Origin: Ilumatobacter sp.
Lineage (GTDB): Bacteria > Actinomycetota > Acidimicrobiia > Acidimicrobiales > Ilumatobacteraceae
Direction of reading: 5' to 3'
DNA length: 64,000 bases
NCBI GenBank assembly: GCA_007693335.1
Contig: REDU01000060.1
Location: forward strand, 1 to 64,000
The position numbers and the translations under genes are program-made. Shown piece after piece: positions 35,471-39,290 of this stretch (position 1 is its first letter; each line of letters opens with the position of its first letter). The notes below the pieces were generated by a model. The model saw only the letters and a list, made by a program, of their open reading frames with translations, was not told where the DNA came from and did not search any database.

Positions 35471-36781
35471 GTGAACGCGACAGACATCCAGACGGATCGA
35501 ACGGCTCGGCACGTCCAGGAGGGTGTGGCCGACGACGTGCTGGCGCACATCGCGCCCGGCACCCAGATCGTGGTGCCGTTGGCCAATGGCGAACCCACCG
35601 CCGTGCTCGACGTGATCGACGCCGCCGCCGCGGCCGGTGAGATCGAGGGTGTGCGGGTGCACCAGATGCACGCCATCCACGAACGGCCCTATCTGGCCGG
35701 CGCCTACGACGATCGCCTCCGCCATGTCTCGTACTTCCTGTCGCACGTGACCCGCCCGCACTTCAACAGCGGGAACCTCGATCTCGTGCCCGCCCACTTC
35801 TCCGAGGTCTACCGGATCATGCGCGGACGCATGGACGACCCGCTGGTGGTGGCCGCGGCATCGCCGCCCGACCAGCACGGCTACTTCTCGCTCGGCGTCT
35901 CGTCCGATTACACGTCGTCGTTCATCGGGCGGGCCCGGTTCTTCCTCGAGGCCACCGAGACGATGCCGCGCACGTTCGGCCGCAACCAGCTCCACGTGTC
36001 GCAGGTGGTGGGCTGGTGCCGGACCGACCGGCCCCTCGTGATGATCCCGCCCCGCGAGCCGAACGAACTCGATCGGACCATCGCCGGTCACGTGGTCGAG
36101 CGCATCCCGAACCGGGCGACGATCCAGACGGGTATCGGTGCGATCCCGAACGCGATCATGGCGGCACTGCACGATCACCACGACCTCGGCATCCACACCG
36201 AGCTGCTGTCCGACGGTGTGGTCGACCTGGTCGAGGCCGGCGTGGTGAACGGCATCGGCAAGGTCCTCAACCGCACCAAGACCGTCGGTACGTTCGCTCT
36301 CGGGACCGAGCGACTGCACCGGTTCCTCCACGAGAACACCGCCGTCGAGCTGTGGCCGGTGCGGTACGTGAACGACCCGTCGATCATCGGACGTGAGCGC
36401 AACTTCGTGTCGATCAACGCCACCCTGTCGGTCGACTTCCTCGGTCAGTGCGCGTCGGAGACCATCGGTGGCAGCTATTACTCCTCCGCGGGTGGGCAGA
36501 ACGACTTCGCACGCGGGGCGATGAACTCCGAGGGCGGCCAGGGCTTCGTGGTGCTGCACTCGCTCACCGGGCACGGGCACTCGCGTATCGTGCCCCGTCT
36601 GGCATCGGGCGACGCCGTCACCACCCCCAAGAACACCGTCGACAAGGTCGTGACCGAGTGGGGTGTGGCCGAACTCCGAGGCCGGTCGATCCGCGAACGC
36701 ACGAAGGCGCTGATCGCCGTGGCGCACCCCGATCAGCGAGAGCAGCTCATCAGCGCGGCGAAGTCGATGGCGTACCTGTGA
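35471..36781 (+). CDS. Acetyl-CoA hydrolase/4-hydroxybutyrate CoA-transferase family protein
   Basis: 436 residues of the class I CoA-transferase family. Landmarks are VVPLANGEPTAVLD near the N-terminus, QTGIGAIPNAIMAAL, HTELLSDGVVDLVEAG and SSAGGQNDFARGAMNSEGGQG close to the acyl-glutamate site. It would move CoA between an acyl-CoA and a carboxylate (for example 4-hydroxybutyrate or acetate) or hydrolyse acetyl-CoA. Leaderless GTG start. Its last 32 bases overlap the convergent ccdA-like gene. Confidence 0.87.
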   Translation: MNATDIQTDRTARHVQEGVADDVLAHIAPGTQIVVPLANGEPTAVLDVIDAAAAAGEIEGVRVHQMHAIHERPYLAGAYDDRLRHVSYFLSHVTRPHFNSGNLDLVPAHFSEVYRIMRGRMDDPLVVAAASPPDQHGYFSLGVSSDYTSSFIGRARFFLEATETMPRTFGRNQLHVSQVVGWCRTDRPLVMIPPREPNELDRTIAGHVVERIPNRATIQTGIGAIPNAIMAALHDHHDLGIHTELLSDGVVDLVEAGVVNGIGKVLNRTKTVGTFALGTERLHRFLHENTAVELWPVRYVNDPSIIGRERNFVSINATLSVDFLGQCASETIGGSYYSSAGGQNDFARGAMNSEGGQGFVVLHSLTGHGHSRIVPRLASGDAVTTPKNTVDKVVTEWGVAELRGRSIRERTKALIAVAHPDQREQLISAAKSMAYL

Positions 36782-37670
36782 CGACATCGGCGTCGACGTC
36801 GGCGACATCGACGTCGACGACATCGGCGTCGGCGACATCGCCGCCCTCGGCGACATCGTCACCGTTCTTGCGGAACCACACGTACGCGATGGCGCTACCG
36901 ACGATGGCCACCAGCACCACCGCCACCCACTGCCAGTTGCCGCTCAGCTGATTGAGCACCCAGTTCTGGAACCGCTCGACGCGGCTCGTGATCGGGTCGA
37001 TGCTCTCGTTCACGTCGACCACCCAGAAGTAGTACACGAGGTACATCCCCGACAGGATCACGAACACCGCGGCGATCGTCTCCACGTGTTGCATCCCGCC
37101 GCGCAGCACCTTGAGCAACCCGGTGTTGGCGACGGCGAGGGCCACTGTGAGCGCCGTGACGAGCAGCGCCATCCCGGCGCCGTACGCCGCCACGTTCGCG
37201 ACGCCGCTCGCGATGCCGTCGCGACGGGTCGAGAACAACGTGGCGAGGAACAACCCGATCGTGCACCCGATCGAGGCCACGGCGTAGGCGATGCCGAACA
37301 CGAACATCGACCCGACGCCCCGGGTGCGCCCGCCGGCATCGATGCGGGGCGTGCTGATCGGGAGCTTGAAGCCGAGCAGCATGGCGACGCCGAGCGTGAT
37401 GAGTCCGACACCGATCCCCACGGTGGCGTACTTCGCGTTCTGGTTGATCCAGGTCGTGAAGTGGTAGGCGATCAGGCCGGCCACCACGAACACCGACATG
37501 AAGCCCGCCGACAGCGATCCGCTCACCAGCAGGGCTCGACGGATGGTGGCACGCTGCGTGCCGGGTAACTGACCCTGCATCCCGAGGAAGTACATGAGGT
37601 AGGTCGGCAACAGGATGAACCCGCACGGGTTCACGGCGGCCACCAGACCTCGCAGGAATGACAGTCCCAT
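36750..37670 (-). CDS. CcdA/DsbD-type thiol-electron transport membrane protein
   Basis: 306 residues, six to seven membrane helices. The two redox cysteines of CcdA proteins are in AAVNPCGFILLPTYL (helix 1) and AVASIGCTIGLFLA (helix 4). It carries reducing equivalents across the membrane for cytochrome c maturation or other extracytoplasmic thiol proteins. The ATG abuts the tlpA-like stop (TAGATG). The C-terminal 35 residues are a low-complexity Asp/Val/Ala tail from GTCGGC/GACATC-type repeats (36781-36860), and the 3' end overlaps the CoA-transferase gene by 32 bases. Confidence 0.88.
   Translation of the reverse strand: MGLSFLRGLVAAVNPCGFILLPTYLMYFLGMQGQLPGTQRATIRRALLVSGSLSAGFMSVFVVAGLIAYHFTTWINQNAKYATVGIGVGLITLGVAMLLGFKLPISTPRIDAGGRTRGVGSMFVFGIAYAVASIGCTIGLFLATLFSTRRDGIASGVANVAAYGAGMALLVTALTVALAVANTGLLKVLRGGMQHVETIAAVFVILSGMYLVYYFWVVDVNESIDPITSRVERFQNWVLNQLSGNWQWVAVVLVAIVGSAIAYVWFRKNGDDVAEGGDVADADVVDVDVADVDADVVTGTPSTSPR
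36781..36860. repeat. Hexamer-like low-complexity repeat in the ccdA tail
   Basis: Degenerate repetition of GACATCGNCGTCG-type units encoding DVADADVVDVDVADVDADV. It sits at the 3' junction of two convergent genes. Confidence 0.7.
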
Positions 37671-38258
37671 CTAGAAGTGCTCCTCGATCAGCTCGCGCAG
37701 GTCGTCGGCGTGCACCTCGCCGACCTCGGCCACGATGATGCCAGAGGCATCCACCAGGTAGGTGCGGGGGAAGCTGGTCAGCGAGACGGCGTCGAGGAAC
37801 GACCCGTCGATGTCGCGCAGCAACTCGTAGGTGACATCACGCTCGGCGGCGAACTCGACCATGCGGCCCGGCTGATCGAACGGGTTGACACCCACGAAGC
37901 GAACCCGGTCGGCCACCTCGTGGTGCACCTCGGCGAAGTCGGCCAGTTCGCGTGCGCAGGGAGGGCAGGTCGAGAACCACACATTGATCACGAGGGGCCC
38001 GCCCGTCAGCGAACTCGTGGGCACCGGGGCGTCGTCGACGTCGACCAGCACGACATCGGGCAGGGTGTCGCCAGGGGTCCGCGCGGCCTGGAGGTCGGCC
38101 AGGTGCGGATCGAGCGGCTCCTGGTACTCACCCGGTTCGTTCATCACGACGGCATCGGTGCGATCGGAGGTGACCTGGTACATCGCCCAGCCACCGACCA
38201 CCCCGACCATCAGTGCCACGGCCAGGGACACCACGAGGAGCCGGGGCCGCAGAGCCAT
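37671..38258 (-). CDS. TlpA/ResA-like membrane-anchored thioredoxin
   Basis: 195 residues. N-terminal signal-anchor (about 6-28), then a thioredoxin fold with the active site FSTCPPCARELADF (about residue 97) and cis-Pro in SFPRTYLVD. It acts outside the membrane on haem-attachment or other cysteines and would receive electrons from the CcdA-like protein encoded directly after it. ATG at 38258 has -10 TAGCCT 6 bases before it. Confidence 0.9.
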   Translation of the reverse strand: MALRPRLLVVSLAVALMVGVVGGWAMYQVTSDRTDAVVMNEPGEYQEPLDPHLADLQAARTPGDTLPDVVLVDVDDAPVPTSSLTGGPLVINVWFSTCPPCARELADFAEVHHEVADRVRFVGVNPFDQPGRMVEFAAERDVTYELLRDIDGSFLDAVSLTSFPRTYLVDASGIIVAEVGEVHADDLRELIEEHF

Positions 38259-38386: not shown

Positions 38387-38788
38387 TCAGGCGACCTCGA
38401 CCCCGACCCCGACCTGGACCTCGACCTGGACCCCGACCACGCCCATCTCGTCGATGACGGGTTCGGGGCGTGGGTGCTTGGGTGGACGCCCGCAGGGGCG
38501 CTTGACGGCCACGATGCGGCCGCCGCTCAACAGTTCGCCACCCCAGACGCCCCACGGTTCCGCTCGTTGCAGGGCGTCGTCGAGACATCGTTCCCTGAGC
38601 ACGCACCTGGCGCAGATGGCCTTGGCGCGACCGATGTCGACGAGGTGATCGGAGAAGAACAGGGGTGTCAGGGTGCCGTTGCCGTCGGCACAGCGCGCCC
38701 GGTCGAGCGGGAGCTCGTCGGCGAACAGCACGTCCGGGCCGATCTCGGGGTCGAGGTCGGGGTCGAGGTCGGTGGAGAAGATGGTCAT
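38387..38788 (-). CDS. whiB7: WhiB7-like transcription factor with AT-hook
   Basis: 133 residues. Four Fe-S cysteines (ARCADG, then CARC and ERC), the turn WGVWGGELLSGGRIV, and directly after it an AT-hook-like KRPCGRPPKHP. The GVWGG turn followed by this hook is characteristic of WhiB7, the activator of intrinsic ribosome-antibiotic resistance in mycobacteria and Streptomyces. The canonical RGRP reads CGRP here. The C-terminal ~20 residues are a Val/Gly/Glu repeat from GACCTC/GACCCC hexamers. ATG at 38788 with AGGA 7 bases upstream. A leader ORF and terminator precede it, as known for whiB7 genes. Confidence 0.85.
   Translation of the reverse strand: MTIFSTDLDPDLDPEIGPDVLFADELPLDRARCADGNGTLTPLFFSDHLVDIGRAKAICARCVLRERCLDDALQRAEPWGVWGGELLSGGRIVAVKRPCGRPPKHPRPEPVIDEMGVVGVQVEVQVGVGVEVA
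38388..38450. repeat. Hexamer repeats at the 3' end of whiB7
   Basis: Degenerate tandem hexamers GACCTC/GACCCC/GACCTG encoding VQVEVQVGVGVEV; similar hexamers occur at the 5' end (about 38745-38775, STDLDPDLDPE). Confidence 0.75.
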
Positions 38789-38863
38789 GTCGGGTCCTGT
38801 GTCGATGGGTGGGTGAGCGGGGAGCGGTCGATGGACGGGGCGGCGCGAGCCGAAAAACGACGA

Positions 38864-38892
38864 AGGCCGCCGGGATCGGATCCCGGCGGCCT
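38864..38892 (-). terminator. Rho-independent terminator in the whiB7 leader
   Basis: A perfect 12-bp stem, AGGCCGCCGGGA / TCCCGGCGGCCT, with a 5-base loop. On the minus strand it is followed by TCGTCGTTTTT, a real U-run and the best in the window. It lies between the leader ORF and whiB7, so read-through is needed for whiB7 expression. Confidence 0.85.
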
Positions 38893-38935
38893 CGGAGGAG
38901 GTGGTTCGACGATGGTCTACGTCGAGGCTCCGAGG
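38890..38935 (-). promoter_or_regulatory. Candidate attenuator fold overlapping the leader ORF stop
   Basis: Alternative fold: outer stem CCTCGGAG/CTCCGAGG (38928-38935 with 38890-38897) and inner stem TCGACG/CGTCGA (38920-38925 with 38906-38911). The inner loop holds the TAG stop of the leader ORF, and the outer 3' arm shares three bases with the terminator stem. Confidence 0.55.
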
Positions 38936-39114
38936 GGCCGGGAGGCGTACTTGGTCGAGAATCCACCCGTGGTCGGGGTGCCGGTGACGGGCGAGACGTG
39001 GACCTGGCGCGCGCCTGCATGCCAGTCGCCACGGACGGCGATCGGGTTCACGCGGATGCGCGCGACCACGACCATGCCGCCGAGGCGATACATGTCGGTC
39101 GAGTTGCTGATCAT
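38917..39114 (-). CDS. 65-residue leader ORF upstream of whiB7
   Basis: MISNSTDMYRLGGMVVVARI... ending PLGAST; no recognised domain. A strong ribosome site (GAGAGGGA) lies 6 bases before the ATG. The stop codon sits in the loop of a hairpin just before the whiB7 leader terminator. Upstream ORFs that couple ribosome stalling to read-through are known for whiB7 in mycobacteria and Streptomyces, usually shorter than this. It may be a real protein, a sensor ORF, or both. Confidence 0.65.
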   Translation of the reverse strand: MISNSTDMYRLGGMVVVARIRVNPIAVRGDWHAGARQVHVSPVTGTPTTGGFSTKYASRPLGAST

Positions 39115-39170
39115 CGTGATCCCTCTCGGTCGTGGGCGGAGCGTCGCACATCGCGCGGGTGCGCGATCGG

Positions 39171-39205
39171 GGTCAACACAACCACGGAGGGAGCCGGAGG
39201 GTCAA
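39171..39205 (-). promoter_or_regulatory. Possible promoter region of the whiB7 leader
   Basis: Two TTGACC -35-like hexamers (39200-39205 and 39171-39176) on the minus strand; the first has GAAAC just upstream, recalling the AT-rich patch of WhiB7-dependent promoters. No convincing -10 is seen. Confidence 0.3.
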
Positions 39206-39290
39206 GAGGGTTTCGCGATCGACCGCGCACGCGAAGAAACGGACGAGCGGAGTCGTGCGGTGGGCGGTGTCGTGTGCGGGTCGACCGTAT

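Follow-up and report, generated by a model that had tools for sequence, protein, structure and literature searches.

Attenuation of whiB7/wblC mediated by an upstream open reading frame (uORF) has been published for Mycobacterium and Streptomyces (Dinan 2014, PMC4128351; reviewed in PMC11550727), a precedent that the first-pass annotation of the present locus had rightly invoked, and Lee, Lee and Roe (2022), according to papers citing their work, likewise describe a whiB7/wblC uORF attenuator. In these systems, disrupted translation of the uORF gives the antiterminator (PMC11550727; PMC13393426). Here we analyze a 64,000-nucleotide stretch of DNA from Ilumatobacter sp. (the window), whose leader has in common with the Mycobacterium and Streptomyces systems a uORF, an intrinsic terminator, an antiterminator, and a WhiB7-type promoter upstream. 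In fact, (I) the downstream gene encodes a WhiB7 orthologue with a WhiB domain, EPWGVWGG, and an AT-hook, (II) a uORF with a start codon and a putative ribosome-binding site precedes the terminator, (III) the terminator lies between the uORF and whiB7, (IV) the antiterminator is built from the end of the uORF and the 5' arm of the terminator, and (V) a candidate AT-rich element stands 3 nt upstream of the −35. We predict, with a probability of roughly 0.9, that in this leader three RNA segments form a transcription attenuator under ribosome control, in front of an autoregulated whiB7. The mechanism is most likely of the already published whiB7/wblC kind, and Acidimicrobiales an extension of its range; we found no report of a whiB7 attenuator in Acidimicrobiales in the literature searched, and the survey of Lee 2022 may already include such genomes. 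On this prediction, ribosome-sensing attenuation of the whiB7 style would extend to a deep-branching order that is mostly uncultured, backed by compensatory changes found in many species.

Table 1 Features of the whiB7 leader in the window, listed from the promoter-proximal end.
Feature	Coordinates	Strand	Details
Leader order	39214 -> 38387	minus	Promoter element, uORF, intrinsic terminator, WhiB7-like gene
Putative WhiB7-type promoter element	39200..39214	minus	GAAACC, CTC, then −35 TTGACC (39205-39200)
Conserved GTGGTT promoter block	39180..39185	minus	14 nt past the −35; present in most relatives
Putative uORF ribosome-binding site	39121..39127	minus	GAGAGGG
uORF, 65 codons	38917..39114	minus	TAG stop 38919-38917; layout repeated in 88 other leaders
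Segment 1, antiterminator 5' arm in uORF	38928..38943	minus	UCCCGGC-C-CCUCGGAG
Stop-codon hairpin	38906..38925	minus	UCGACG/CGUCGA, UAG in loop; helix 3 of the alignment
Segment 2	38881..38897	minus	CUCCGAGG-CC-GCCGGGA; antiterminator 3' arm and most of terminator 5' arm
Intrinsic terminator	38853..38891	minus	12-bp stem 38891-38880/38876-38865, loop 38879-38877, U-run to 38853
WhiB7-like regulator, 133 aa	38387..38788	minus	Four Cys, EPWGVWGGE, AT-hook-like CGRPPK

The whole layout is read toward lower coordinates, with the RNA switch located between the 65-codon uORF and the WhiB7-like gene. The ORF, the terminator, and the outer and inner stems of an alternative fold, all proposed in the first-pass annotation, were each found where it had placed them. 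The putative ribosome site GAGAGGG stands six bases ahead of the ATG, and the terminator, a perfect 12-bp stem followed by UUCGUCGUUUUU, was recovered in a terminator scan (0.2 expected). Both the outer stem (38935-38928/38897-38890) and the inner stem with TAG in its loop (38925-38920/38911-38906) are correct. The alternative fold was nevertheless incomplete as first drawn, lacking a further 7-bp helix between UCCCGGC in the uORF (38943-38937) and GCCGGGA (38887-38881). The full antiterminator thus comprises helices of 7 and 8 bp together with the 6-bp stop-codon hairpin, and takes 9 of the 12 terminator 5'-arm bases; the earlier objection that the two folds overlap little, by three bases, therefore falls. 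A second reservation, that the ORF is longer than known whiB7 uORFs, does not hold either: 65 codons is ordinary among the 89 leaders described below, where uORF length ranges from 46 to 110 codons with a median of 60.

We infer that the uORF is translated, that the leader switches, and that translation inhibitors induce whiB7, by the following route. Segment 1 would be the closing stretch of the uORF, and segments 2 and 3 the 5' and 3' arms of the terminator. A ribosome finishing at the uORF stop would cover most of segment 1 and melt the stop-codon hairpin; segment 2, left free, would pair with segment 3 and transcription would end before whiB7. If ribosomes are stalled or slowed in the uORF body, or never started, segment 1 would pair with segment 2 once it is transcribed, pre-empting the terminator and allowing whiB7 to be expressed. 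The same direction, termination with a finishing ribosome and read-through with a stalled one, had been proposed from the sequence at the outset, and it agrees both with our constrained folding and with what has been published on whiB7/wblC (PMC11550727, PMC13393426).

In constrained folding, the window RNA before the terminator 3' arm reaches −36.5 kcal/mol with the ribosome upstream and −21.4 kcal/mol with the ribosome on the stop codon. For the whole leader, occupancy of the stop by a ribosome changes the energy difference in the terminator's favor by a mean of 6.8 kcal/mol, and by 9.5 kcal/mol in the window. At full equilibrium, whatever the ribosome state, the terminator is favored by at least about 10 kcal/mol, and read-through would therefore rest on the antiterminator forming first, through co-transcriptional kinetics as in other attenuators. 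The antiterminator is also destroyed when the front edge of the ribosome lies within 18 nt of the stop, and effective stalls must therefore occur earlier in the uORF. We also looked in the uORF body for a protector element directed against segment 1, and found pairing no better than in codon shuffles (mean z 0.4); with no selected protector, an untranslated leader should therefore read through.

Selection on the pairing can be read from the uORF end itself. For the window's own leader, pairing between uORF end and terminator arm reaches −27.9 kcal/mol, compared with −17.4 ± 3.1 kcal/mol in synonymous recodings, none of 300 being as good. In a sample of 56 non-redundant leaders (<80% identical), synonymous recoding of the uORF end, with codon frequencies drawn from the uORF bodies, weakens the pairing (z < −1 in 54 of the 56, mean z −2.6). 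Because synonymous recodings pair worse, the pairing is selected in the RNA beyond the needs of the peptide. Similarly, the uORF ends of these 56 leaders form stronger duplexes with their own partner than with swapped ones (mean −26.0 vs −21.5 kcal/mol; 0 of 20,000 permutations as good), a figure that, like the shuffle comparison below, overstates the strength of the signal since related species are not independent, while the synonymous test works within each sequence.

Covariation was counted in a sequence-only alignment of 33 leaders. Here, 80.1% of the cells of the antiterminator and stop-codon hairpin are paired, compared with 28–42% in slid versions, and 36 cells are changed on both sides, compared with 12.9 in shuffles (0 of 500). 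Compensatory changes fall in both antiterminator helices and in the stop-codon hairpin, where five of five pairs carry changes on both sides. The terminator is paired in 99.7% of the alignment. At one informative position of its 5' arm, nine sequences have U in place of C; the terminator keeps a U-G pair in eight of these, and the uORF carries the matching A, giving A-U, in seven. The compensatory changes observed in the alignment support both predicted folds.

WhiB7-like genes were found in 53 of the 61 genomes searched, the window's own counted, and leaders were collected upstream of these genes and from 80 named loci of GTDB genomes (Ilumatobacter nonamiensis, Ilumatobacteraceae, and Acidimicrobiales). 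This gave 89 leaders with a common order of parts, the window's included, nearly all from Acidimicrobiales; a same-genus relative has a matching layout and a nearly identical switch. Comparison with relatives, which had been suggested as a check, thus finds the stop position conserved, 24–44 nt before the terminator (median 30) in the 89 leaders, along with the stems and their compensatory changes. At some more distant loci (e.g., L081, L082, L087, and L103), a leader of this kind was not recognized upstream of whiB7. A covariance model built from the 33 leaders, which now exists for a leader that Rfam did not match, was run against 297 genomes of the order; it detects the element in 174 (E ≤ 1e-4) and gives no match in the other 123. 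Among the best 30 matches, all 30 have a WhiB7-like gene directly downstream, and in a phylum-wide draw of 396 genomes at a stricter cut-off all 23 matches fall in Acidimicrobiales. The other matches in the window's genome lie within coding sequence, as judged by eye, with no WhiB gene near, and we regard them as chance.

We also compared the whiB7 leaders of two named Mycobacterium genomes, which reveal the same architecture in a sequence unrelated to that of the Acidimicrobiales leader. Their uORFs have 50 and 52 codons, with UAA inside a hairpin, and the uORF GUCCGUGG pairs with the terminator CCACGGAC; the Acidimicrobiales uORFs, with the median given above, are somewhat longer. Despite drift in the sequence, the attenuator logic thus seems to be ancient or to have been maintained repeatedly. 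Unlike in Mycobacterium and Streptomyces, some Acidimicrobiales relatives have apparently leaderless uORFs. In 12 loci (L018, L024, L026, L030, L045, L054, L059, L060, L061, L086, L088, and L090), the uORF ATG lies 36–40 nt past the −35 TTG, close to the expected transcription start, and these uORFs are therefore probably leaderless; if so, they would initiate unlike the uORF of the window. With trp/ilv-type attenuators, the leader shares a leader ORF and a mutually exclusive terminator and antiterminator. Unlike that type, the window uORF contains no regulatory run of cognate codons, there is neither a selected protector nor a protector hairpin forming without translation, and the target is a WhiB-family resistance regulator and not a biosynthetic operon. 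With erm-type translational attenuation, the common element is a leader ORF that presumably senses drugs targeting the ribosome; in contrast to that type, the output element in Acidimicrobiales is a terminator with a U-run, and it is therefore transcription that would be controlled.

What the uORF senses is a separate matter, and we hold with less certainty that the trigger would be a general slowing of translation and not a specific arrest peptide; a general sensor of ribosome progress is favored with moderate confidence. An arrest peptide, or a sensor specific for an amino acid as in alanine starvation, is a variant of the attenuator reading (their confidences overlap) that we consider unlikely. 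Mycobacterial whiB7 is reported to respond to alanine starvation (Poulton 2024, as cited in PMC11550727), alanine makes up 17% of the uORF bodies in the set and 14 of 50 and 18 of 52 residues in the two Mycobacterium uORFs, and many relatives have a Lys-Arg pair ahead of segment 1. However, the window uORF has 6 Ala in 65, no codon run, and no Lys-Arg pair, no arrest motif or codon run common to the leader set was found, and it is chiefly the RNA-pairing end that is conserved. Constrained folding also suggests that a ribosome stalled near the Lys-Arg codons would itself cover segment 1, and we set these codons aside as a stall site for that reason. Very different leader peptides joined to one common RNA switch make a natural set for asking what whiB7 leaders sense, namely one particular peptide or amino acid, or just the progress of ribosomes. 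Tentatively, and with the odds somewhat against it, we propose a translation-speed sensor acting through RNA pairing and a long, nearly free uORF, together with a promoter that one clade has re-tuned along with loss of an AT-hook arginine. If true, ribosomes could stall anywhere in the uORF, no arrest peptide or amino-acid code being needed, and the loss of the first AT-hook arginine in that clade would accompany a changed DNA motif in the autoregulatory promoter.

The uORF could instead be an independent gene for a small protein, with the hairpin as its terminator and whiB7 separately transcribed. The perfect terminator after the ORF would suit such a gene, as would the moderate protein-level constraint on the uORF body, where per-site differences are usually higher for synonymous than for nonsynonymous changes, in close pairs often by a factor of two to three, with exceptions. 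A plain terminator, however, needs no pairing with the ORF before it, and here selection acts on the uORF end to keep it pairing with that arm of the terminator; a conserved promoter is placed before the uORF, the best 30 model matches all stand upstream of whiB7, and the peptide is poorly conserved. In fact, a protein-similarity search with the uORF returned nothing useful in relatives, missing even the same-genus relative, since the peptide shows little conservation beyond its RNA-pairing end; the leader family came to light through the DNA upstream of relatives' whiB7 genes. We consider a separate small protein gene very improbable. A ligand-binding riboswitch or T-box, to which the terminator/antiterminator pair alone would be suited, is hardly credible, since the Rfam covariance models gave only sub-threshold chance matches in the leader, and the conserved pairing within an ORF whose stop codon sits in the loop of a hairpin fits a ribosome as the input.

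As for the proposed autoregulation, the promoter-like element upstream of the uORF reads GAAACCCTC-TTGACC (39214-39200, minus strand), and an equivalent motif occurs at the corresponding place in the leaders of relatives. WblC sites have been described as GAAAWY, 3 nt upstream of the −35 (PMC7157823), from which the putative WhiB7 element of the window differs by one base. The exact GAAACYYYCTTGAC occurs once in the window's genome.

We note a relation between the promoter motif and the AT-hook. In 13 leaders, the window's included, the first AT-hook Arg of WhiB7 is replaced by C or G (CGRP/GGRP); 12 of these have GAAACYYYC ahead of the −35, and the 13th, L053, has TTAACTCCC at that position. 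RGRP species mostly have (A/T)AA(A/T)TCRG before the −35. The exact GAAACYYYCTTGAC is present once per genome in eight C/G-GRP genomes and in none of seven RGRP genomes, and the copies located in C/G-GRP genomes all sit at the whiB7 promoter. The C/G-GRP group may be a single clade, and these motifs suggest that the DNA-binding residue and the DNA site possibly changed together. A GAAACYYYC regulon was sought across genomes; outside the whiB7 promoter, one-mismatch matches were at control level.

The label WhiB7-like given earlier to the downstream gene is right, because WhiB7 (7kif) is the solved structure that its product matches best (E = 1.2e-17, against E > 1e-6 for other Wbl proteins), ALQRAEPWGVWGGE is identical over 14 residues in that comparison, and the protein carries the AT-hook-like CGRPPK, in which Cys stands in place of the first Arg. 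The product also matches Pfam Whib (E = 9.5e-13). At both its ends (38392-38431 and 38732-38771), the whiB7 coding sequence contains GACCTC/GACCCC hexamer-like repeats in opposite orientation, 40 nt long and 83% complementary, that encode DLDPDLDP near the N terminus and VQVEVQVGVGVEV near the C terminus; they could pair within the mRNA. In the same-genus relative (L007), short tandem CCGTCCCGTCCA-like repeats lie between the terminator and whiB7. Downstream of whiB7 on the minus strand are a gene assigned by eye to a CcdA-like membrane protein (36750-37670; no meaningful Pfam match) and a gene for a TlpA/ResA-like thioredoxin (37671-38258; Pfam Redoxin, E = 1.4e-16).
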